A DNA stretch of 11,206 nucleotides, taken from NCBI GenBank assembly GCA_011772275.1, contig WVZU01000356.1, forward strand, positions 505-11,710, in the 5' to 3' direction. The translations under genes and the position numbers were made by a program. Position 1 is the first letter of the stretch; each line of letters begins with the position of its first letter. Positions 1-11,206 of this stretch are shown here, piece after piece. The notes beneath the pieces were generated by a model that was given only the letters and a program-made list of their open reading frames with translations, did not search any database and was not told the DNA's origin. The stretch is from Planctomycetales bacterium. GTDB taxonomy: Bacteria; Planctomycetota; Planctomycetia; Pirellulales; UBA7805.

Positions 1-3000
1 CCGCACAAGTACAGCTGGCCGTCCTCCGGATGAAACCGCCCCCGCATCACTCCGGTTGGAAAACGGGGAATGGGCAATTCGCACATGCCGCCCTGAACCT
101 GGCCGTCGATTTTTTCGTGGGGCACGACGTACACCATGCCGTATCCGTACGAAAGATTCAGCAGCTGCCCTTTCAGGGGCCCCCACTTCGGACTGTCGAC
201 CCACAACAGCTCGGCCGGCGAACGGTCAAAGGCATTGGTAATCCAGCACAACGGCTGCTCCATCGCTGTGTCCGATTCGTTGGTCACATCGTGGTAGCCG
301 AGCATATTGCCGTAAAATCCTCCCTGGCGAACGTAGTTGATCCGGTTCTTGGGATTCCAGTGCCCCTCCTGATCGGTAACGATAAAGGTGCCGTCGGGGT
401 TCACACAGACCCCGTTGGCCGCGCGAAAACCGGTGGCCACGATGTCGGTCCGCTGGCCGTCTTTGCTGACCCGCAACAGCGTGCCATGGTGCGGCACGAC
501 GGCCGCGCGGCCGTGCCGAGCGGACTTGGCGTAGTAAAAATTACCCTCGTCATCCACCTGCAGCCCCATGGCAAACTCGTGAAAATGTTCGGTCACCTGG
601 TGATCGTTGTTCCAGTTCTGGAAGTAGTCGATCTCGCCGTCGCCGTTCAGGTCGTGGAGGATACACAGCTGGTCACGGCAGAGGACGTGGATCTTGCCGT
701 CCACGATTTTGACTCCCAGCGGCTGGAACAGCCCCGAGGCGATCCGTCGCCAGGTGAGCGGTATGGTTTGCGGGCCGGCCGCCGACTGGGGCAGCTGGTC
801 CAGACCGTTGATTCGCCAGATACTCCCATCCCAGCTGCTGACCACCGCACTGCGGCCGTCGGGCGTAAAGTCGAAACCGGTCAGCCGCATCCGGCAGAAC
901 CAGGGATTTTCGGCGGGCAACGTCAAGACGTCGACCGCCAGCGGCCCGCGGTCCGAGCCGATCTGGGCCTGGCTGGTCAAAACTTCCGGCCAGCGGGGCG
1001 GTCCACCCCGCGTGTACTTCGCCAGGTGCTCATCCGGACGGTCCACCACCACGGCGTCCGCCAGGCTGCGCGCCTGCCCCTCCTCCGCCACCTCTGCGAA
1101 CCAGAGGGTGAAACGCCATGGTTGATCGCCGGCGGGAATCTTCAACCGCAGATCCTGGCCCTTGGCCTGCCACGTCAAGCCGCGGGTCTCGCCGCTCGTC
1201 CCGGCCACAATCACCGTGCCGGCAGGGTCCCGCTCTTGCACCCGGCGATGGGCCGTGACCCGAACCGCGTGATGCTGTTTGCCGATCCGGTTCGGAACGC
1301 GCCCCGCCCTGCCCGCGGTCAAGTCCCAGCGAGCCAGCTGTGAGTTGCCCGCCACAGGCTGGCCGTTTGACAGACCAGCAATCTGCTCGCCGCTCAACGC
1401 CGCCCGGAACAGGCAAACCTCCGCCAGCTGGCCCTGCAGGCCGGACGGCTGGGGAAAGTTATCCGACGTATGACCGATGCGAATGATCGGATCGTCCACG
1501 CCGTGCCGCGGCTTCAGCCGTCCCGGTCGGCCGTCCGGCCGGCCGTCGACGAAGAACTGAAATTCGCCCGACTGCTGGCGGTAGGCGATCGCCACCTGGT
1601 GCCATTGGCCATCGGCCACCTGCCGTTGTCCCTGATGGACACCCACCCAGCCGATGTCGAAGGCCAGCCGGCCATCACGCAGGAACCAGGTCATGCCGTT
1701 TGGGACCCAGCTCGGGCTGTTTTTGGTGAAAGCGAGCAGAGTTCCGTCGCGATTGGTTTTAAGTCGAGCGGTGATGGTGAAATCGGTTTGTTGCAGATCC
1801 AGGGCATCGGCCGCCGGCACCTGCAGCCAGGTATGGCCGTCAAAGCTGGATAAATCCGCCCCCTCGCCCTCCGGGGCGGCCTGCGGCGGCCGCGGTTTGT
1901 CCCGCCGTGCGGGACCAAAGACCGCGATCGGACCTTGCTGCACCAGTCGAGCAGCGGGGTGGTTGGCGTGGGCAACCTGCACGATCAGATCGTGGTCCCG
2001 CGGACCGACGTTCAGCGTTCGGGTGAAAACGGGCCGCGCCTCCGACAACAACAGGCCCGGCAGTTCCAACACCTCCGTGTCGCCGACCCGGTAGCGGATG
2101 ATGGTCTTGGCACCGTGAGCGTACATTCCCTGGTAGTGCGCCCACTCGCGGGGCAGCGGGCCGTAGCGGCGGCCATCGCGACCGACCAGCCGGAGATCCT
2201 GGAAGCTGCCATCGTCAGGCCGGCCCCAGCCGGGGCCGGTCGGATTGGCGACGTGCACCGTGCCGACCGGCCGCGGATGCACCCCGTGCCGGCCGTTGAA
2301 GTTGATGCCGTTGAAGTCGATGAACCCCTCGCCGCTCCACACCGCCGCCATCCGCATCGTGTCGTAATCGAAGACCATCCAGTAGCGGCCCTTGGCCACG
2401 CCACCGGGACCGGCATCCAGCCGCAGGGCGTTGCCCTTGTAAGCAAAATTCGTCGCGTCGCGGCCGATTTCCAGGGCCAGCACCAGGTTGGGACCGTAGT
2501 CCATCTGCTCCCACGGCTCGTATTCCGCCGGCGCCGGACCCCGCGTGTGGCCCTTGGGCAGACGATCCAGGTACGCCTGATCGAAGGCAATGTACTGCGT
2601 CGGATTGTACCGCTTCAGATACGCCTCGCGGACGTAATGGATCACGTCGTATTTCTGAGTGGGGACCATCCAGGTCTGCGGGGCCATCATGCCGAACCCG
2701 TGCGTCAAGGTGCGATACATGGCATACGGGTCGCTGCCGTTCTTGAACTTGCCGGAGGCAAACTTCAGCGACGTCGGTAGCGCCCCCGCTCGGTCCCGCG
2801 TTCCGTGACAATTGACACACAACCGCTCATAAATCTTCTGACCACGCGCAAAAGACTCCTCGTCCAGATCGGCCAGGATCCCGGCGTGATCAATGTGTTT
2901 TTCGTACTCGGGCAGGGGCCGCGCGGCGTAGAGGAAGGGGGCGGGTTCCAGCTGGTCCGCCCGGGCCGCACCCCCGTCACGAATCTCGATCAGGTACCGA

Positions 3001-3539
3001 ACCAGGTCCAGAAACTGCTGCCGGCCACTCAACATGTTGACCTGTCCGGCCGGCATCAACGAGGTCTGTGCCGGAACCACCTCGTCGATCGCGTCCCTGG
3101 CCAGTTCGATCCGCTTGAGGTTCTGGGCCGCGTCGCGCAAAACCAACCGCTGTTCTTCCTCCCTTTCCACAACCCCCGTGAACTGCTTGCCGTCGTCCAT
3201 GAAGACCGACACCGTTTCGAAACCCTTGCGGATCACCTTGGACGGTTCCAGGATCGCCTCGACCAGGTACGCGTCGCTGACCTGGTCGGCAAATTTCGTC
3301 AGGTTGGGGCCCAAGCGATGGCTCTGTTCGTCCGCCAGGTGGCAGCGTGTGCAGGCAAGTTGCTGCTGGTAAAACACAACCGCGCCCCGCGCGGCGTCCC
3401 CCGTCTGCCGCGCCGCGCGGGCCAGAGCCTGCGAACCCTCCGCCCGCAATCGCTCCTCCAGCGTCTGCCCCGTCGCGTCGTGCAACAGGCACAGCCAGCC
3501 GACCAGACTAAACAACATCAAGCGAACGGGCCTGAACAT
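1..3539 (-). CDS. Secreted multidomain c-type cytochrome / PVC-type dehydrogenase-like protein (C-terminus beyond the window)
   Basis: The frame is open from ATG at 3539 to the left edge, about 1179 codons with no stop, so the C-terminus is missing. Order seen: an N-terminal hydrophobic signal peptide (residues ~6-24); a first heme c site CTRCH (63-67) in a module that resembles the Pirellula/Verrucomicrobium putative heme-binding domain (TIGR02603-like, ~45-186, ending with an SLMP motif); a second cytochrome c module with CVNCH (241-245) and candidate axial methionines in a GFGMM segment near 290; a DUF6797-like region from ~345 (MDYGP, then KG, then a DYDTMRMAAVWSG stretch); a LamG/concanavalin-like domain (~562-735); and from ~880 a beta-propeller resembling glucose/sorbosone dehydrogenases, with an EF-hand-like DLNGDGEID loop near 960. 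Family knowledge suggests a periplasmic enzyme oxidising carbohydrate or polyol and passing electrons to heme c; the substrate is unknown. No strong Shine-Dalgarno is seen (GAAAGAAG lies just upstream). Gene presence is very secure; function is inferred. Confidence 0.9.
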   Translation of the reverse strand, partial: MFRPVRLMLFSLVGWLCLLHDATGQTLEERLRAEGSQALARAARQTGDAARGAVVFYQQQLACTRCHLADEQSHRLGPNLTKFADQVSDAYLVEAILEPSKVIRKGFETVSVFMDDGKQFTGVVEREEEQRLVLRDAAQNLKRIELARDAIDEVVPAQTSLMPAGQVNMLSGRQQFLDLVRYLIEIRDGGAARADQLEPAPFLYAARPLPEYEKHIDHAGILADLDEESFARGQKIYERLCVNCHGTRDRAGALPTSLKFASGKFKNGSDPYAMYRTLTHGFGMMAPQTWMVPTQKYDVIHYVREAYLKRYNPTQYIAFDQAYLDRLPKGHTRGPAPAEYEPWEQMDYGPNLVLALEIGRDATNFAYKGNALRLDAGPGGVAKGRYWMVFDYDTMRMAAVWSGEGFIDFNGINFNGRHGVHPRPVGTVHVANPTGPGWGRPDDGSFQDLRLVGRDGRRYGPLPREWAHYQGMYAHGAKTIIRYRVGDTEVLELPGLLLSEARPVFTRTLNVGPRDHDLIVQVAHANHPAARLVQQGPIAVFGPARRDKPRPPQAAPEGEGADLSSFDGHTWLQVPAADALDLQQTDFTITARLKTNRDGTLLAFTKNSPSWVPNGMTWFLRDGRLAFDIGWVGVHQGQRQVADGQWHQVAIAYRQQSGEFQFFVDGRPDGRPGRLKPRHGVDDPIIRIGHTSDNFPQPSGLQGQLAEVCLFRAALSGEQIAGLSNGQPVAGNSQLARWDLTAGRAGRVPNRIGKQHHAVRVTAHRRVQERDPAGTVIVAGTSGETRGLTWQAKGQDLRLKIPAGDQPWRFTLWFAEVAEEGQARSLADAVVVDRPDEHLAKYTRGGPPRWPEVLTSQAQIGSDRGPLAVDVLTLPAENPWFCRMRLTGFDFTPDGRSAVVSSWDGSIWRINGLDQLPQSAAGPQTIPLTWRRIASGLFQPLGVKIVDGKIHVLCRDQLCILHDLNGDGEIDYFQNWNNDHQVTEHFHEFAMGLQVDDEGNFYYAKSARHGRAAVVPHHGTLLRVSKDGQRTDIVATGFRAANGVCVNPDGTFIVTDQEGHWNPKNRINYVRQGGFYGNMLGYHDVTNESDTAMEQPLCWITNAFDRSPAELLWVDSPKWGPLKGQLLNLSYGYGMVYVVPHEKIDGQVQGGMCELPIPRFPTGVMRGRFHPEDGQLYLC

Positions 3540-3668
3540 CTTTGGTTCTTCTTTCGTCGCCCCTTCCGATGTCCGTCGCTTCTTAACCAGAGATTCCTCT
3601 AAAAAACCCCAAACACGGTGCGGAGGGGGGGCCAGCTTGCCCTTCAGCCCCTGCCGGCGGGCGGGTGC

Positions 3669-3685
3669 ATTACACGGATTGTAAT
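3669..3685 (-). promoter_or_regulatory. Inverted repeat overlapping a candidate -10 of the cytochrome-like gene
   Basis: ATTACA and TGTAAT form a perfect 6-5-6 inverted repeat. Read on the minus strand, TACAAT (3683-3678) matches five of six bases of the -10 consensus, but no good -35 sits 17 bases upstream. It would give a 5' UTR of about 130 bases before the ATG at 3539. A repressor or activator operator on this promoter is possible; the evidence is the symmetry and position alone. Confidence 0.3.
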
Positions 3686-3775
3686 TGTTTGGCAGCATGC
3701 GAGTATGCGTTGGAGCCGTTTCGACTCTCATATCACAGGGATTACATTTTAAAGAGTAGGCCACCCCAGCTCTGA

Positions 3776-4004
3776 GCCCCGGCATTTATGCCGGGGCGAT
3801 GATGTCCATCACCCCACCGGCGAGGCCCGTTTACGGGCCTTCTGGCCATGGCGGCTTCCGCCCTGGCGATCACGTGTGGTGCTGCTTGATTGAGTGTGGT
3901 TCCTCCGCGAGTCATCCCAGGCTAAAGCCAGACAACGGCAAGCCCCGTAAACGGGGCTCGACAGATTTTTTTACCCGATCTGAACCTCGTGCTAAAGCAC
4001 GAGG
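3776..4004. repeat. Cluster of REP-like palindromes with AA/TT centres
   Basis: Five perfect palindromes share one plan, a GC-rich arm around a two-base TT or AA centre: 3776-3797 (10-base arms, left arm GCCCCGGCAT), 3823-3840 (8-base arms, AGGCCCGT), 3920-3929 (4-base arms, GGCT), 3941-3958 (8-base arms, AGCCCCGT) and 3985-4004 (9-base arms, CCTCGTGCT). The first two have TTTA at the core and the last three TAAA, so the block reads as two groups in opposite orientation. A sixth, imperfect hairpin (one mismatch, 3-base loop) is at 3845-3867. Arm sequences differ while arm symmetry is kept, as expected for hairpins under structural selection. The site lies beyond the 3' end of one gene and upstream of another, as is usual for REP/BIME-type repeats. 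No RAYT transposase is in the window. Confidence 0.75.
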
Positions 4005-4718: not shown

Positions 4719-5360
4719 ATGCAGTCGCTGGCACGACTTGATGCGCTGAGCCACAGTGTGCTCGTATTGAACCGCTTTTATATGGCAGTTCACGTGGTGA
4801 ACTTGCGGCGGGCGATCGGGCTGCTGTTCCGCGATTTGGCCGAAGTAATCCACGTGGAATCGGGTCAATACGTCAATTACGACTTTGTCTCGTGGCGGGA
4901 AATCAGCGAGTTGAAGCAGGCATTTGCAGAGCTTGAACCGGGTGCGGACTGGCTGCGGTCGGTCAACTTTCGGATCCAGATACCCCGCGTCATCCGGCTG
5001 CTATCTTACGACAAGGTGCCCAATCGCGGCCTGCGATTCAATCGCCGCAACGTTTTCGCTCGTGACGCCAATCGCTGCCAGTACTGCGGCGCTACTTTTC
5101 CGACCAGCGAATTGAGCCTGGATCACGTGACGCCGCGCAGTCAGGGTGGGCAGATGAGCTGGGAGAATATTGTTTGCTGTTGTGTCGACTGCAATGCCAG
5201 GAAAGGTGGCCGCACGCCGCGGGAGGCAGGCATGAAGCTGATCCGTTCCCCCAAGCGACCCAAGCACAATCCGCTGCTGTCTGGAAAGTTGAACAATCCC
5301 AAGTACGAAAGCTGGAAAACGTTCCTCAGCAACGCCTACTGGTCGATAGACCTTAAGTGA
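4719..5360 (+). CDS. HNH endonuclease family protein
   Basis: A 213-residue protein starting at ATG 4719, with GGGAG seven bases upstream. The N-terminal ~110 residues match the helical region of stand-alone HNH proteins common in planctomycetes, cyanobacteria and other environmental bacteria (VLVLN, then RRAIGLLF, then a YDFVSWRE stretch). The HNH/treble-clef fold follows: RDANRCQYCG with C120 and C123, LDHVTPRSQGG with D135 and the presumed general base H136, WEN with N150, and CVDCNARKGGRTPREAGM with C155, C158 and N159. Structural zinc ligands and the catalytic core are all present, so nuclease activity is plausible. No adjacent methylase, toxin partner, intron or transposon gene was found, so its biological target is unknown. 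Confidence 0.9.
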   Translation: MQSLARLDALSHSVLVLNRFYMAVHVVNLRRAIGLLFRDLAEVIHVESGQYVNYDFVSWREISELKQAFAELEPGADWLRSVNFRIQIPRVIRLLSYDKVPNRGLRFNRRNVFARDANRCQYCGATFPTSELSLDHVTPRSQGGQMSWENIVCCCVDCNARKGGRTPREAGMKLIRSPKRPKHNPLLSGKLNNPKYESWKTFLSNAYWSIDLK

Positions 5361-5439: not shown

Positions 5440-5721
5440 CTAGACCGGGTCGCCCAGCGGATCTTTCTTTTCCGTGATGACTTCGCACTGCGGCGCCATC
5501 TCGGCGTTCAGCTGGGTGAACTCTTTCCACTCGTCCGGGACATTATCCTCATGGAAGATCGCCTCGACCGGACATTCCGGCACACACGCCTCGCAGTCAA
5601 TACACTCGTCTGGGTGGATATAGAGGATCTTTTCCCCTTCGTAGAAACATTCCACCGGGCAAACAACTACACAATCGGTGTACTTGCAAGCAAAACAAGG
5701 CTCACAAACAACGTGCGTCAT
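5440..5721 (-). CDS. fdxA: 7Fe ferredoxin (one 3Fe-4S and one 4Fe-4S cluster)
   Basis: A 93-residue cytoplasmic electron carrier. The start is chosen at ATG 5721 because AGGAGAG (5730-5736) lies eight bases upstream and the protein then begins as in the family; a longer frame to 5892 is not supported. Cysteine spacing matches Azotobacter-type ferredoxin I with a one-residue offset: C9, C17 and C50 for the 3Fe-4S cluster; C21, C40, C43 and C46 for the 4Fe-4S cluster; and the free C25. CKYTDC, the [10 protein letters not shown] stretch, IHPDECIDC and an EKKDPL C-terminus are also family hallmarks. It is somewhat shorter than the ~106-residue Azotobacter protein at the C-terminus. Its redox partner is not identifiable here. 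It is divergent from the sigma factor gene and convergent with the HNH gene. Confidence 0.93.
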
Positions 5722-5883
5722 CAGATACTCTCTCCTGTACGCTCTGCTGGCCGAATGTAAACACTTATCACAGCAACGTTTGAGCGTCTTACGCCGCCGC
5801 TCGAATCGCCCGAATCTTACTGCCGCCGGCGCGTGCCTGTCAACCCGCTCGAATTCTAGGTTCGGCACAGTCGCCAGCTTCAC

Positions 5884-5912
5884 TTGCCCCAAAGTTTGGT
5901 CGAATTTAGAAT
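5884..5912 (+). promoter_or_regulatory. Candidate promoter of the sigma factor gene
   Basis: TTGCCC (5884-5889, four of six to the -35 consensus) and TAGAAT (5907-5912, five of six to the -10) have the ideal 17-base spacing. Initiation would fall near 5919, about 45 bases before the GTG at 5964. The promoter is embedded in the inverted repeat at 5886-5924. Confidence 0.45.
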
Positions 5913-5963: not shown

Positions 5964-6617
5964 GTGAACCCTTGTTTCCTTCAGCCGGGTACAGCCGGTT
6001 CCCATTCCCGGCGATCTGCTGAATTCGAGTTCGAGGACACTTTGGCACTCTCCGAAATTGACCGATCTCTTCTGGAACGCTGCGTGGCCCGCCAAACGGG
6101 TTCCTGGAACGAGTTTGTGGATCGTTTCATGGGGCTGGTGATCCACGTGATCCACCACGCCGTGCAAGCCCGCTCGCTGCAGATCACCGCTGCGGACGAG
6201 GAGGATCTGGCCGCTGAGGTCCTCTTGGAGATCATCGCCAACGATTTCGCCGTTTTACGGCAATTTCGTGGGCAGAGCAGTCTGGCGACTTATCTGGCCG
6301 TGATCGCTCGACGTGTCGTCATCCGCGAATTATTGCATCGGTTTGGCCGTGGCCGACCGACGGCCGGCGATGGGGAAATGGCCGAAGTCAGCGATCCCAG
6401 CCGGGCCGCGCAGGATGTGCTGAGCGACCGCGAGCAGGTCGAGCGGTTGTTGGAAGAGCTGGAAGGTGCCGAGGCCGATGTGGTCCGGCTGTACCACCTG
6501 GAAGGCAAGTCGTACTACGAGATCAGCATGGCCACCGGCATGCCGGAAAACAGCATTGGCCCGCTGCTGAGCCGCGCTCGCGAAAAACTACGGCGGTCGA
6601 TGGCCGAGAAGACTTGA
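5964..6617 (+). CDS. RNA polymerase sigma factor, ECF/sigma-70 family
   Basis: A 217-residue protein if read from the GTG at 5964. Region 2 (~51-125) contains FVDRFMGLVIHVI, an EEDLAAEVLLEI segment and the promoter-melting/-10 recognition stretch FRGQSSLATYLAVIARR. Region 4 (~157-213) carries a helix-turn-helix for the -35 element (YYEISMATGMPENSIGPLL) followed by SRAREKLRR. It would direct core RNA polymerase to a dedicated promoter set. The start is uncertain: a TTG at 6042, five bases after GAGG, would begin the protein at LALSEIDR, where I recall similarity to planctomycete relatives beginning; the first 26 residues from the GTG look non-conserved. No anti-sigma factor gene adjoins it, so control may be transcriptional (see the inverted repeat at its promoter). 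Its 3' end overlaps the convergent gene by 30 bases. Confidence 0.9.
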   Translation: MNPCFLQPGTAGSHSRRSAEFEFEDTLALSEIDRSLLERCVARQTGSWNEFVDRFMGLVIHVIHHAVQARSLQITAADEEDLAAEVLLEIIANDFAVLRQFRGQSSLATYLAVIARRVVIRELLHRFGRGRPTAGDGEMAEVSDPSRAAQDVLSDREQVERLLEELEGAEADVVRLYHLEGKSYYEISMATGMPENSIGPLLSRAREKLRRSMAEKT

Positions 6618-8411: not shown

Positions 8412-8420
8412 CCACACTTG

Positions 8421-9524
8421 ATGAAGATCCAGGCCGCGGTACTTTTTGGCGTCCGCGAACCGTTTCGTATCGAAACGGTCGAACTGGGCGAACCGCGGGC
8501 CGGGGAAGTGCTGGTCAAGATGGCCGCGGCCGGTATCTGCCGCAGCGACTGGCACCTGGTCACCGGTGCCACCCGACACCCCCTGCCGGTCGTACCGGGG
8601 CATGAGGGCGCGGGCCGCGTGGAGGGGACGGGCCCCGCGGTGGAGGGCCTGGCGGTCGGCGACCTGGTCACCTTGAATTGGGCCCCCGCCTGCGGAAGGT
8701 GTTATTACTGTCGAGCGGGCAAGCCCAATTTGTGTGCCACCTGCCTGGAACCGGTCTGGTCGGGAGGGCTGCTGGACGGCACCACGCGGCTCTCGCTGGC
8801 CGGCCAGCGGCTGTACCACTTCTGCGCCTTGGCGGCCATGGCCGAATACGCGGTCGTACCCGCGGCCTCCTGCGTGAAAATGGATTCCCGTCTACCCCCC
8901 ACCGTCGCGGCCCTGATTGGCTGCGCGGTCGCCACGGGCGTGGGTGCCGTGCTGAACACCGCGCACCTGCCTGCCGGCAGCCAGGTGGCCGTGTTTGGGG
9001 CGGGCGGCATCGGGCTGAACATCATCCAGGCGGCCCGCCTGGCGGGCGCGGCCAGCGTGATTGCGATCGAGCCTCAGTCAGCGCGACAGGCGCTGGCGGG
9101 GGAATGTGGGGCGTCCCACGTCCTGGCCCCGGGACCCCGCACCGTGGCTGCAATCAAAGACTTGTGCGACGGCCGCGGCGCGGATTACGTTTTCGAAGCG
9201 GTGGGGGACCCCCAAGTCCAGCAGGCCTGCGTGGAGGCCGCCCGGCCGGGCGGCACCATCATCCTGGCCGGTTTGGCCCCCATGGATTCCCGCACGGAAT
9301 TGGCCGCCGCCGCCCTGGCCCGCCAGGAAAAAACCATCAAAGGGTCCTACTACGGTTCGACTGTCCCGGCGCGTGACTTTCCACAGTACGGCAAATACTG
9401 CCTGGATGGCCAACTGGACCCGCAGCGATTGATTTCTCAGACGTACCCCTTGCAGCAAATCAACCAGGCCTATCAGGATATGCTGGCCACGCGAATCGCC
9501 CGCGGGATGATTCTGTTCGACTGA
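8421..9524 (+). CDS. Zinc-dependent alcohol dehydrogenase, medium-chain (class III-like) family
   Basis: A 367-residue cytoplasmic NAD(P)-dependent oxidoreductase. The start is ATG 8421; an adjacent TTG at 8418 would add one residue. Catalytic zinc ligands are visible: C40 (GICRSDWH), H61-E62 (PGHEGAGRV) and C168 (LIGCAVATGVGAV). Structural zinc ligands are C91, C94, C97 and C105 (ACGRCYYCRAGKPNLC). The Rossmann domain has GAGGIG (193-198), and acidic E217 ends the second strand, which favours NAD over NADP. The GCxVATG context and overall length place it with class III-type and related bacterial alcohol dehydrogenases. The substrate cannot be told; S-hydroxymethylglutathione is not supported specifically. 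It is divergent from 7736-8221 with a 199-base gap. No clear terminator follows. Confidence 0.92.
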   Translation: MKIQAAVLFGVREPFRIETVELGEPRAGEVLVKMAAAGICRSDWHLVTGATRHPLPVVPGHEGAGRVEGTGPAVEGLAVGDLVTLNWAPACGRCYYCRAGKPNLCATCLEPVWSGGLLDGTTRLSLAGQRLYHFCALAAMAEYAVVPAASCVKMDSRLPPTVAALIGCAVATGVGAVLNTAHLPAGSQVAVFGAGGIGLNIIQAARLAGAASVIAIEPQSARQALAGECGASHVLAPGPRTVAAIKDLCDGRGADYVFEAVGDPQVQQACVEAARPGGTIILAGLAPMDSRTELAAAALARQEKTIKGSYYGSTVPARDFPQYGKYCLDGQLDPQRLISQTYPLQQINQAYQDMLATRIARGMILFD

Positions 9525-9554: not shown

Positions 9555-9583
9555 TTGACGCAATTGCCAACGACCGCTACGAT
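9555..9583 (+). promoter_or_regulatory. Sigma70-like promoter of the leuA leader
   Basis: TTGACG (9555-9560, five of six) and TACGAT (9578-9583, four of six to TATAAT) are separated by exactly 17 bases. The +1 position predicted from a -10 ending at 9583 is 9590, which is the A of the leader AUG, so the transcript is probably leaderless. Confidence 0.65.
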
Positions 9584-9589
9584 GCAACA

Positions 9590-9751
9590 ATGCCGCGCAG
9601 CGGTCGGGTAGCGGTCACAAGCACAAGCACCCCGGCAACAGAGCCAAGCACCCCGGCAAGCGAAGTGGATTTCCCCGTGTCCCGATGGAACCTGCCAGCC
9701 CTGCTCCTTCCGCTGCTCGCCGCTGGCGGGCTGTCTGGGCTGTACGTTTAA
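9590..9751 (+). CDS. Leucine-rich leader peptide upstream of leuA
   Basis: A 53-codon frame from ATG 9590 to TAA 9749-9751. The first half is S/T/P/A-rich with a seven-codon repeat. The second half contains eight leucine codons among the last 18 sense codons (9692-9745: CTG, CTG, CTC, CTT, CTG, CTC, CTG, CTG), five of them within 9701-9718. It ends 22 bases before an intrinsic terminator and lies about 250 bases upstream of leuA. I infer a cis-acting leader peptide whose translation senses charged tRNA-Leu. Translation may start leaderlessly at the AUG, or downstream at GTG 9665 or GTG 9677 in the same frame. Alternative: a real small membrane protein, since the leucine-rich end is hydrophobic. 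No recognised homolog. Confidence 0.5.
9624..9659 (+). repeat. In-frame 21-base tandem direct repeat in the leader frame
   Basis: The 15-base unit CAAGCACCCCGGCAA occurs at 9624-9638 and 9645-9659, a period of 21 bases or seven codons. It encodes STPATEP followed by STPASE, so the repeat keeps the leader frame open. Confidence 0.8.
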
Positions 9752-9786
9752 TTCGGTGTTGCTCGAAACAAACAGCCCTCAGGCCC
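9695..9786 (+). promoter_or_regulatory. Candidate leucine attenuator: competing 1:2 and 2:3 (antiterminator) structures
   Basis: Segment 1 is CCAGCCC (9695-9701), inside the leucine codon cluster. Segment 2 is a tandem GGGCTGT at 9728-9734 and 9737-9743, overlapping the last leader codons. Segment 3 is ACAGCCC (9772-9778) plus GCCC (9783-9786), the left arm of the terminator. CAGCCC of segment 1 pairs with GGGCTG of segment 2. Segment 2 pairs with segment 3 through 7 bp (9737-9743 with 9772-9778) plus 4 bp (9728-9731 with 9783-9786), which would block the terminator. A ribosome stalled on leucine codons in segment 1 would free segment 2 and allow leuA expression; one reaching the stop at 9749 would cover segment 2 and let the terminator form. 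The folding is read by eye, not computed. Confidence 0.55.
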
Positions 9787-9807
9787 TCCGGCCTTGGGGC
9801 TTTTTTT
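9774..9807 (+). terminator. Strong intrinsic terminator before leuA (attenuator segment 3:4)
   Basis: AGCCC (9774-9778) pairs with GGGCT (9797-9801) and AGGCC (9781-9785) with GGCCT (9790-9794), separated by a TC/TG internal loop that can hold one G-U pair. The loop is four bases (CTCC). Seven T (9801-9807) follow. Because leuA begins about 195 bases further on, on the same strand, it is best read as an attenuator. Confidence 0.88.
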
Positions 9808-10002
9808 GTGGAACCATCCTTATGCGACCCTTACACCTGCGGGCCCCCTGTCCCCAGAGGAGACGCAGACCCCATCCGGCCCACGACGACCTTTGCCCTG
9901 GCGACGATCCAAAAACAAACGGTACGGATCCCGGACCGATCGCCCCGCTGCCAGGGTCCTGGTTGGCCGGCGGCCGAGTCCGACGCAGGAGATAACGCCC
10001 CG

Positions 10003-11206
10003 ATGAACGAACCTGTCGACCCGAAACGGATGATCAAGATTTTCGACACGACCCTGCGCGACGGCGAACAGTCGCCTGGCGCCAGTATGAACCTTTTTGA
10101 AAAACTGGAAATTGCCCAATCGCTGGCCGACCTGGGGGTGGACATCATCGAAGCCGGTTTTCCGATCGCGTCGCCGGGCGATTTTGAAGCGGTCCGCGAA
10201 GTCGGCAAGATCATCCGGGGACCCACGATCTGCGGGCTGGCTCGCTGCAACGACGCAGACATCGATCGCGCCTGGGAGGCGCTCAAACATGCCGAAACCC
10301 CCAGGATCCACGTGTTTCTGGCGACCAGCGCCATTCACCGCCAGTTCAAACTGAAGATGGACAAGGACCAGATCATCCAGCGTGCGGTCGAGGGCGTACG
10401 TCGCGCGGTCGCTTATTGCGACGACGTCGAATTTTCGCCGGAGGATGCGGCACGGACCGAACCCGACTTCCTCTGCCAGGTCGTGGAGGCCGCGATCCAA
10501 GCCGGGGCCTCCACCGTCAACATCCCCGACACCGTCGGTTACGCCACCCCCGCTCACATGGGAGGCGTAATCCAGACGCTGGTCGATCGCGTGCCGAACA
10601 TCGATCAGGCGGTGATCAGCGTGCACTGCCACAACGACCTGGGCCTGGCGGTGGCCAACAGCCTGGCGGCGGTGGAAAACGGGGCGGGGCAGGTCGAATG
10701 CACCATCAACGGCATCGGGGAACGTGCGGGCAACTGTTCGCTGGAGGAAATCGTGATGGCCTTGCGGGTCCGTGCTGACTATTTCCACGCGGACACCCGT
10801 ATCGTCAGCCAGCGGCTGGTGCCCACCAGCCGCCAGGTCGCCAATATCACGGGGATCCAGGTCCAGCGCAACAAGGCGATTGTGGGCCGCAACGCCTTCG
10901 CCCATGAAGCGGGCATCCATCAAGACGGGATGCTGAAGGAAGCCCGCACCTACGAGATCATGCGGCCCGAGGACGTCGGCCTTGCTCAAACCGACCTGGT
11001 GCTGGGCAAACATAGTGGTCGAGCCGCTTTGGGGGACCGGGCCAGGCAGCTGGGTTACCGGTTGACCGCCGAGCAATTGCATGAGGTATTCGACAACTTC
11101 AAACAGCTGGCCGATCGCAAGAAAGAAATTTACGACAGCGATATCGCCGCGTTGATCGAAGAGATCATTCGCGTCGTCAGCGACCAGTGGACCTTTGGTT
11201 CCTACT
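10003..11206 (+). CDS. leuA: 2-isopropylmalate synthase (C-terminus beyond the window)
   Basis: First committed step of leucine synthesis: acetyl-CoA plus 2-ketoisovalerate gives 2-isopropylmalate and CoA, in the cytoplasm. The start is ATG 10003, with AGGAG at 9987-9991 eleven bases upstream. The 401 visible codons cover the catalytic TIM barrel and the following linker region: [13 protein letters not shown] with R19 and D20, EAGFP, the metal-binding HCHND (H208, H210, N211, D212), [15 protein letters not shown] (from G237), [11 protein letters not shown] and [10 protein letters not shown]. These identify LeuA rather than homocitrate or citramalate synthase, although citramalate synthase is a close relative. 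The C-terminal LeuA dimer/regulatory domain that binds leucine is cut off by the window edge, so feedback control cannot be judged. Upstream lies the leucine-rich leader and attenuator. The 9808-10002 stretch is untranslated leader with nothing else recognised. Confidence 0.96.

Follow-up and report, generated by a model that had tools for sequence, protein, structure and literature searches.

A probable leucine attenuator before leuA in a planctomycete, with counterparts before citramalate synthase and DAHP synthase genes

The leuA locus and its leader

The window, that is, the whole stretch of DNA analysed here (11,206 nucleotides of contig WVZU01000356.1, from a bacterium of the Planctomycetales), ends within a leuA gene and carries upstream of it a predicted promoter, a leucine-rich leader frame, competing RNA pairings and a terminator. 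The genes and features to which the text refers are the following:

3-3785, minus strand: long open reading frame with a TIGR02603 heme-binding domain
4719-5360, plus strand: gene whose product is probably an ordinary HNH endonuclease
5440-5892, minus strand: FdxA-like ferredoxin (NCBIfam, below cut-offs)
5964-6617, plus strand: ECF-type sigma factor (TIGR02937, over cut-off)
8418-9524, plus strand: zinc-type alcohol dehydrogenase-like protein (NCBIfam, below cut-offs)
9555-9583, plus strand: predicted sigma-70-type promoter TTGACG-17-TACGAT (-35 TTGACG at 9555-9560, 17 nucleotides, -10 TACGAT at 9578-9583)
9590-9751, plus strand: 53-codon frame from ATG 9590, probably longer than the true leader
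9677-9751, plus strand: leader peptide of 24 codons from its likely real start, GTG 9677; stop TAA at 9749-9751
9695-9701, plus strand: segment 1, the putative protector strand CCAGCCC, which can pair with segment 2 (from the sequence)
9728-9743, plus strand: segment 2, left strand of the predicted antiterminator, with GGGCTGT at 9728-9734 and again at 9737-9743
9772-9786, plus strand: segment 3, right strand of the predicted antiterminator and left arm of the terminator, with ACAGCCC at 9772-9778; the terminator covaries in the family
9774-9801, plus strand: terminator hairpin, -19.4 kcal/mol
9790-9801, plus strand: segment 4, right arm of the terminator (from folding)
9801-9807, plus strand: terminator tail of seven T, read from the sequence
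9732-9805, plus strand: 37.4-bit match to the RNA model R1, which runs from the end of the leader into the terminator; the window itself is among the 52 training sequences
10003-11206, plus strand: leuA, 2-isopropylmalate synthase, from ATG 10003; the window end cuts the product at 401 residues

The leuA product scores 656.8 bits against NF002086 (cut-off 532) and 619.5 bits against TIGR00973 (cut-off 598.7). The ferredoxin, sigma factor and dehydrogenase-like genes are ordinary neighbours; the protein of 4719-5360 has partial matches to the models of IscB and Cas9d that are weak and score far under the cut-offs, and a weak R1 match (16.5 bits) lies on the minus strand at 3601-3658, close to the 5' end of the frame with the heme-binding domain.

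A first-pass annotation, made from the letters of the window, had proposed a leucine attenuator at this place. Direct reading finds promoter, leucine-rich leader, competing pairings, terminator and leuA where that annotation had put them, and likewise reproduces the gap of 195 nucleotides between the T run and the ATG of leuA, which it had entered as a caveat. Its leader needs two corrections. The richness in leucine stands, the exact count of eight among the last 18 codons does not: there are seven in the last 18 and eight in the last 19. The further caveat, that 53 codons is long for a leader peptide, concerns a frame that is present as such but is probably not the real leader, for a start at GTG 9677 is more likely than one at ATG 9590, given that the 24-codon product aligns by eye with the relatives' MARLNLLPLELRLLALGKR and MAQLNLLGLLLQLLASGKR (its beginning resembling their MARLNLL.. 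and MAQLNLL.., again by eye) and that ATG 9590 coincides with the predicted start of transcription.

Taken by itself, the window's locus stands modestly above chance, which is suggestive and not compelling. The fold of 9590-9810, which the first-pass annotation had put forward as a check, is nothing special when compared to shuffles (z -0.31); the fold of 9685-9810 reaches z -2.46 (2 of 200 shuffles). The window's 2:3 duplex amounts to -14.0 kcal/mol, with p 0.09 against shuffled strand 2, and its 1:2 pairing, also a part of the original claim, is not significant alone (z -0.46). Significance comes from the relatives: leader and terminator occur together at 35 of their 57 loci, and not once in 570 shuffles or 57 reverse complements.

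Leader, terminator and pairings in relatives

The gene leuA was detected in 55 of 57 genomes drawn from the family and order to which the window belongs, yielding 57 upstream regions (L001-L057). Two of these regions, L014 and L056, are identical; they precede two leuA copies that lie inverted to each other in a single genome. The two copies (G012:C241:17184-20053) are divergent and of equal score, and this pair may be an assembly artefact. Eighty further loci were taken from named genomes, 34 of them planctomycete by title and 46 others, with enough upstream sequence in 33 and 45 cases, respectively; at least one of them, L092, duplicates L010. As a leader was counted any short open reading frame with at least six leucines in its last 18 codons and an end at most 600 nucleotides from leuA; the strict criterion for the terminator places it within 110 nucleotides of the leader.

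Conservation of the leucine codons before leuA, on which the original proposal had staked itself, is evident: leucine-rich leaders precede leuA at 42 of the 57 related loci (the window's leader with its seven leucines), at 14 of 33 loci from named planctomycetes and at 7 of 45 from other organisms. With the strict terminator added, the counts are 35 of 57, 11 of 33 and 1 of 45, and none is seen among 135 reverse complements and 1350 dinucleotide shuffles. The one match among the 45 non-planctomycete loci is L145, from a Verrucomicrobium, in which the leader tail NLGLSLALLALRFASETMG is followed by a terminator. The strict test of leader plus terminator is failed by 22 of the 57 related loci; under a looser folding criterion a hairpin and a T run follow all 42 leucine leaders of the 57 relatives, and three of the strict failures outside the R1 training set (L017, L022 and L053) yet have an R1 match upstream of leuA.

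In a sample of the whole phylum leuA was found in 47 of 118 genomes, and 29 loci were read in addition to that of the window. All seven from another order of the same class have at least six leucines in the leader tail and a terminator recognised by eye; in other classes at least six leucines and a terminator occur at 2 of 20 loci (L208 and L225), and L209 and L215 have six leucines without an evident terminator. At the leuA of a member of the Gemmataceae (L114), 12 of the last 18 leader codons specify leucine and a terminator follows.

The pairings were studied in 55 planctomycete loci with a leucine leader and a terminator by the looser criterion. All 55 are in the 2:3 duplex test; the 52-locus alignment omits L009, L092 and L117, and the 51-locus set used for own-versus-cross pairing, switch folding and promoter additionally omits L033. 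The covariation for which the first-pass annotation had proposed a test is there for the terminator (3:4): 91.4% of the cells in the 52 loci are paired, with 56 two-sided changes against 15.9 ± 3.5 after shuffling (0 of 500 shuffles).

As regards the predicted antiterminator, in many relatives the stop codon of the leader lies within GGCC.TAGGGTTCG, which is able to pair with the left terminator arm CGAACCCC.AGGCC, and in 34 of the 55 loci predicted strand 2 starts about 3-8 nucleotides before the leader stop and runs through it. The 2:3 duplex has a mean z of -1.8 over the 55 loci; 25 of them reach p ≤ 0.05 and 13 reach p ≤ 0.01. When each strand is offered its own partner or that of another locus, in a test to whose signal shared ancestry adds, the 2:3 pairing scores -19.0 within and -16.6 ± 0.38 between loci, and the 1:2 pairing -27.1 within and -23.3 ± 0.48 between (51 loci; 0 of 5000 permutations in either case); a control segment gives no signal (mean z +0.17). 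The 1:2 pairing, with a mean z of -1.2 versus shuffles over the 51 loci, gives a signal in this manner for the family and not for the window alone.

For the 2:3 pairing the outcome is likewise divided, own partners being the better ones but pair-by-pair covariation failing to appear in fixed columns. There, the percentage of paired cells is not above shuffles (69.1% versus 68.1%; 51 of 500 shuffles), nor are the two-sided changes (24 versus 21.9; 169 of 500), while the percentage paired exceeds that of slid registers (23-55%). Since several loci have strand 2 in a displaced position, a fixed register cannot follow the antiterminator; the negative result stands nevertheless, and counts against the attenuator reading. 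The window itself has a variant of the three strands, CAGCCC, GGGCTGT and ACAGCCC in place of the usual GAACC, GGGTTCG and CGAACCC, and by eye all three change together.

A transcription start of leuA behind the terminator had been named beforehand as an observation that would speak against attenuation. A promoter motif, TTGAC-N16..18-TANNNT, sits upstream of the leader, 60-330 nucleotides before its stop, in 44 of 51 loci, compared to 0.8 expected from shuffles, and answers this concern at the level of sequence, the start site being predicted rather than measured. An extra internal start of leuA besides the upstream promoter may exist.

Sister operons and a second upstream frame

A covariance model of the RNA (R1) was built from 52 leuA leaders and searched over the 57 genomes; it begins some four codons ahead of the stop of the leader, so that the leucine run lies outside it. 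Sixty R1 sites away from leuA were examined, apparently those down to E 1.3e-4, a set that omits opposite-strand twins of other matches as well as G005:C464 (L178, where a cimA gene lies). Thirty-three of them precede cimA, encoding citramalate synthase, 21 precede a DAHP synthase gene and six were assigned to neither; representative downstream genes score 672.5 bits (cimA, TIGR00977) and 489.3 bits (DAHP synthase, NF006421). In one of the six, L244, the leader ends in IIIREVRP, and what looks like a broken or truncated cimA start lies downstream of it.

The leaders before cimA contain on average 3.73 isoleucines versus 0.98 in shuffles (z 17.5; for example VVAIEIIIREVRP), valine (z 5.3) and glutamate (z 3.8) being likewise raised. 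Those before DAHP synthase genes contain 5.62 phenylalanines, tryptophans and tyrosines versus 1.82 (z 14.9; for example YWFWFYFTPMGRGAGGRI), and glycine is raised too (z 7.5), from a conserved tail. Judged by these codon contents, the matching of amino acids at cimA and DAHP synthase is an independent confirmation of the proposed sensor logic. The single leuA element of the first-pass annotation is real as an element but not alone, being one of a larger set with members at cimA and DAHP synthase too.

With residue thresholds chosen after inspection of the leaders of the 60 sites, and in genomes that overlap the R1-searched set, a gene-based count of short frames followed by a terminator (30 genomes for five genes, 57 loci for leuA) gives at least six leucines at 35 of 57 leuA loci, at least three isoleucines at 15 of 27 cimA loci and at least four phenylalanines, tryptophans or tyrosines at 12 of 27 aroF loci. 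The same detector, under any of its six residue rules, returns 0 of 29 for ilvB, 0 of 30 for trpE and 0 of 30 for hisG. Off-diagonal leaders number two aromatic and one valine at leuA, one aromatic and one tryptophan at cimA, and two valine at aroF, the two tryptophan matches of aroF being aromatic leaders; among the 15 isoleucine cases one or two, for example L389, look accidental. Leaders of leuA and cimA could have been copied along with the gene, as LeuA and CimA are related and score on each other's models; DAHP synthase has no family match in common with either of them.

In the window's own genome an R1 site with a terminator precedes cimA (L245, 401-483; G000:C87:9694-9776), and the tail of its leader, ITGRIGEQPRP, has only two isoleucines. 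By eye, an aromatic leader was not seen at the closest DAHP synthase gene of that genome (L287; G000:C368), in contrast to the 12 of 27 genes counted above.

A second element, here called B, lies between terminator and leuA in 24 of 88 planctomycete loci (22 distinct), 83-385 nucleotides before the leuA match (e.g. L010, L016, L020, L027 and L041), and consists of AGGGC.YGGTTGGYGTTGC, with at most five mismatches, and a GC hairpin. The frame that encodes R-A-[RWH]-L-[VAL]-L extends without a stop back to an upstream ATG in all 21 rows, the other two frames in 4 and 3 of 21, and mean entropies at codon positions 1, 2 and 3 are 0.58, 0.21 and 0.91 over the 21 rows (L045, L056 and L092 are omitted from the frame test; L056 and L092 from the alignment behind the model R2). 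A search of the 57 genomes with R2 gives 24 matches below E 1e-4, spread over 22 of them; to go by the coordinates, every one lies ahead of leuA, and most of the loci so matched belong to the R2 training set. Of five weaker matches (E 0.004-0.008), two are at leuA and three elsewhere. To judge from its frames and codon positions, element B looks like a translated open reading frame under strong sequence selection, and perhaps, speculatively, it encodes an arrest peptide. In the window the R2 search finds no element B. A look-alike near 9950-9985, weak and noted by eye, was dropped, and three near matches to the pattern away from leuA (L071, L072 and L078) were set aside, lying within apparent coding sequence.

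Proposed mechanism, rival readings and known systems

A ribosome halted in the leucine run was simulated by removing the nucleotides under it before folding. With strand 4 still absent, strand 3 then pairs with strand 2 at a mean probability of 0.74 versus 0.32 in shuffles (51 loci), and no more than 5% of shuffles equal this pairing at 33 of the 51; with the ribosome at the leader stop, the terminator forms at a mean probability of 0.93, and at 0.6 or more in 50 of 51 loci. For a ribosome stalled at codon 9713 the window's antiterminator has 0.79, and its terminator 0.77 with the ribosome at the stop; under the stall rule of the family the two values are 0.42 and 0.90. At full-length equilibrium the terminator prevails despite a stalled ribosome (family mean 0.77), and therefore a kinetic, co-transcriptional choice must be assumed. 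Such a choice is likewise assumed for other attenuators.

On comparative grounds only, the window very probably (with a probability of roughly 0.9) holds a leucine attenuator of the classical ribosome-mediated type, sensing leucyl-tRNA. From an anatomy, a conservation and an amino-acid matching in sister operons that are matters of observation, I infer that the leader is translated, that ribosomes stall in it and that read-through responds to leucine. RNA polymerase would initiate near 9590, and a ribosome would translate the leader from about 9677. With ample leucyl-tRNA, it would reach the stop at 9749 and cover segment 2 (9728-9743); segment 2 being hidden, segments 3 and 4 would pair, the terminator would form, and transcription would stop in the T run at 9801-9807. 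With scarce leucyl-tRNA, the ribosome would halt in the leucine run (codons 9701-9718) and leave segment 2 free to capture segment 3 before segment 4 exists, whereupon the polymerase would read into leuA. In an untranslated leader, segment 1 could pair with segment 2, and the terminator would form.

Other readings of the same parts deserve weighing. The hairpin and tail of 9774-9807 might merely end an upstream transcript, with the leuA promoter behind it and the leader frame a product of chance; an upstream frame does end at 9524, and 195 nucleotides leave room for a promoter, yet a sigma-70-type scan finds no promoter-like site between terminator and leuA, and the promoter motif of the family lies ahead of the leader in those 44 of 51 loci. 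As neither a chance leader agrees with the absence of leader plus terminator from all 1350 shuffles, nor a mere transcript end with amino acids that match at cimA and aroF and are missing at ilvB, trpE and hisG, this reading is very unlikely. That the leader is a functional hydrophobic small protein with a terminator of its own, and no sensor, agrees with its hydrophobic, membrane-segment-like peptide; it is scarcely credible in view of leucines that are retained while the remaining leader residues vary widely (by eye), of sister leaders rich in isoleucine (cimA) or in phenylalanine, tyrosine and tryptophan (DAHP synthase), and of an antiterminator strand 2 that overlaps the leader end.

A ligand- or tRNA-binding RNA (riboswitch or T-box), or an RNA-binding protein, could drive the terminator and make the leader incidental. 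In its favour, RNA sequence around the terminator is conserved, and for leucine-codon elements of actinobacteria a role as protein sites has been argued (PMC1262725); but Rfam has no family on the window's region and nothing beyond chance in 13 relatives, and it is the leader's codon content that follows the pathway, so that such control is most unlikely. A different kind of doubt concerns the window's copy, which might be decaying within a family that is real: its strand 2 now lies ahead of the stop, the usual TAGGGTTCG is missing, its own 2:3 duplex is at p 0.09, and all five leuA loci that were read from two genera of its family (g3 and g4; L015, L018, L021, L034 and L035) fail the leader test. 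Decay is nonetheless improbable, since the three strands of the window differ together from the usual ones (by eye), its folding switch still works (0.79 and 0.77), and its promoter, leucine run and terminator are intact.

A search of Rfam 15 (4227 families) gives two weak matches up to E 5 for the window, none within 9590-9810, and three up to E 1 for 13 relatives' loci, all in L020 and far below gathering scores; a mir-3170 match on the L020 attenuator, for instance, has 26.3 bits against a gathering score of 98. For the Rhodopirellula-1 motif a published table gives three columns, which I take to be RNA, cis-regulatory and riboswitch. In that table the motif, a candidate structured RNA of Planctomycetes and Proteobacteria, is marked '? 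y ?' (Weinberg 2010, PMC2864571); it is set beside the leuA element here from this table entry only, which carries no Rfam accession there (PMC2864571). Parts of another paper report peaks of leader-gene distance in groups that include the Planctomycetes, and those parts mention neither leuA nor leucine (PMC4833913); PMC2965389 contains neither of the terms planctomycet and leuA. Within openly licensed PubMed Central, a scope that leaves out the survey of Lopatovskaya 2010, no description of classical attenuation at planctomycete leuA, cimA or DAHP synthase was found among the titles and abstract openings returned.

Ribosome-mediated attenuation needs a leader that is translated during transcription, and therefore bears on the disputed question of coupling, Gemmata obscuriglobus having been reported, according to passages of two later papers, to segregate transcription from translation (Gottshall 2014, cited in PMC6212462 and PMC5394234). 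The chances seem even that one attenuator design recurs over leuA, citramalate synthase and DAHP synthase, with sensor codons swapped per pathway and often, behind the leuA attenuator, a second layer made of the translated RA[RWH]L[VAL]L frame and its hairpin, which may be a nascent-chain sensor; such a design would only work with the leading ribosome just behind the polymerase, and for this phylum a separation of transcription and translation has been claimed. The Gemmataceae locus L114, with its leucine-rich leader and terminator, bears on the same question. If the proposal is true, codon-based amino-acid sensing reaches another phylum, and the citramalate route has an isoleucine-sensing design. 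The interest of the system lies in the recurring set over three pathways and in what it implies for coupling in planctomycetes.

Among known systems, the proteobacterial leu, trp, thr and his attenuators likewise have a leader rich in the regulated residue, competing antiterminator and terminator, and the first gene of the pathway downstream. The planctomycete elements differ from them in phylum and in having no Rfam match, in a strand 2 that begins about 3-8 nucleotides before the leader stop (the 34 of 55 loci given above), and in the similar RNA layout shared by leuA, cimA and DAHP synthase. In actinobacteria, both attenuators and a LEU pseudoknot at leuA have been described (Seliverstov 2005, PMC1262725). 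Compared by description, the LEU element resembles the planctomycete one in its upstream frame of leucine codons before leuA; it forms, however, a pseudoknot in which leucine codons pair with the ribosome site of leuA, whereas the planctomycetes have an intrinsic terminator (PMC1262725). The leuS and trp attenuators of Streptomyces and Corynebacterium, which govern other genes in another phylum, are alike in showing the classical leader, antiterminator and terminator outside proteobacteria (PMC1262725).
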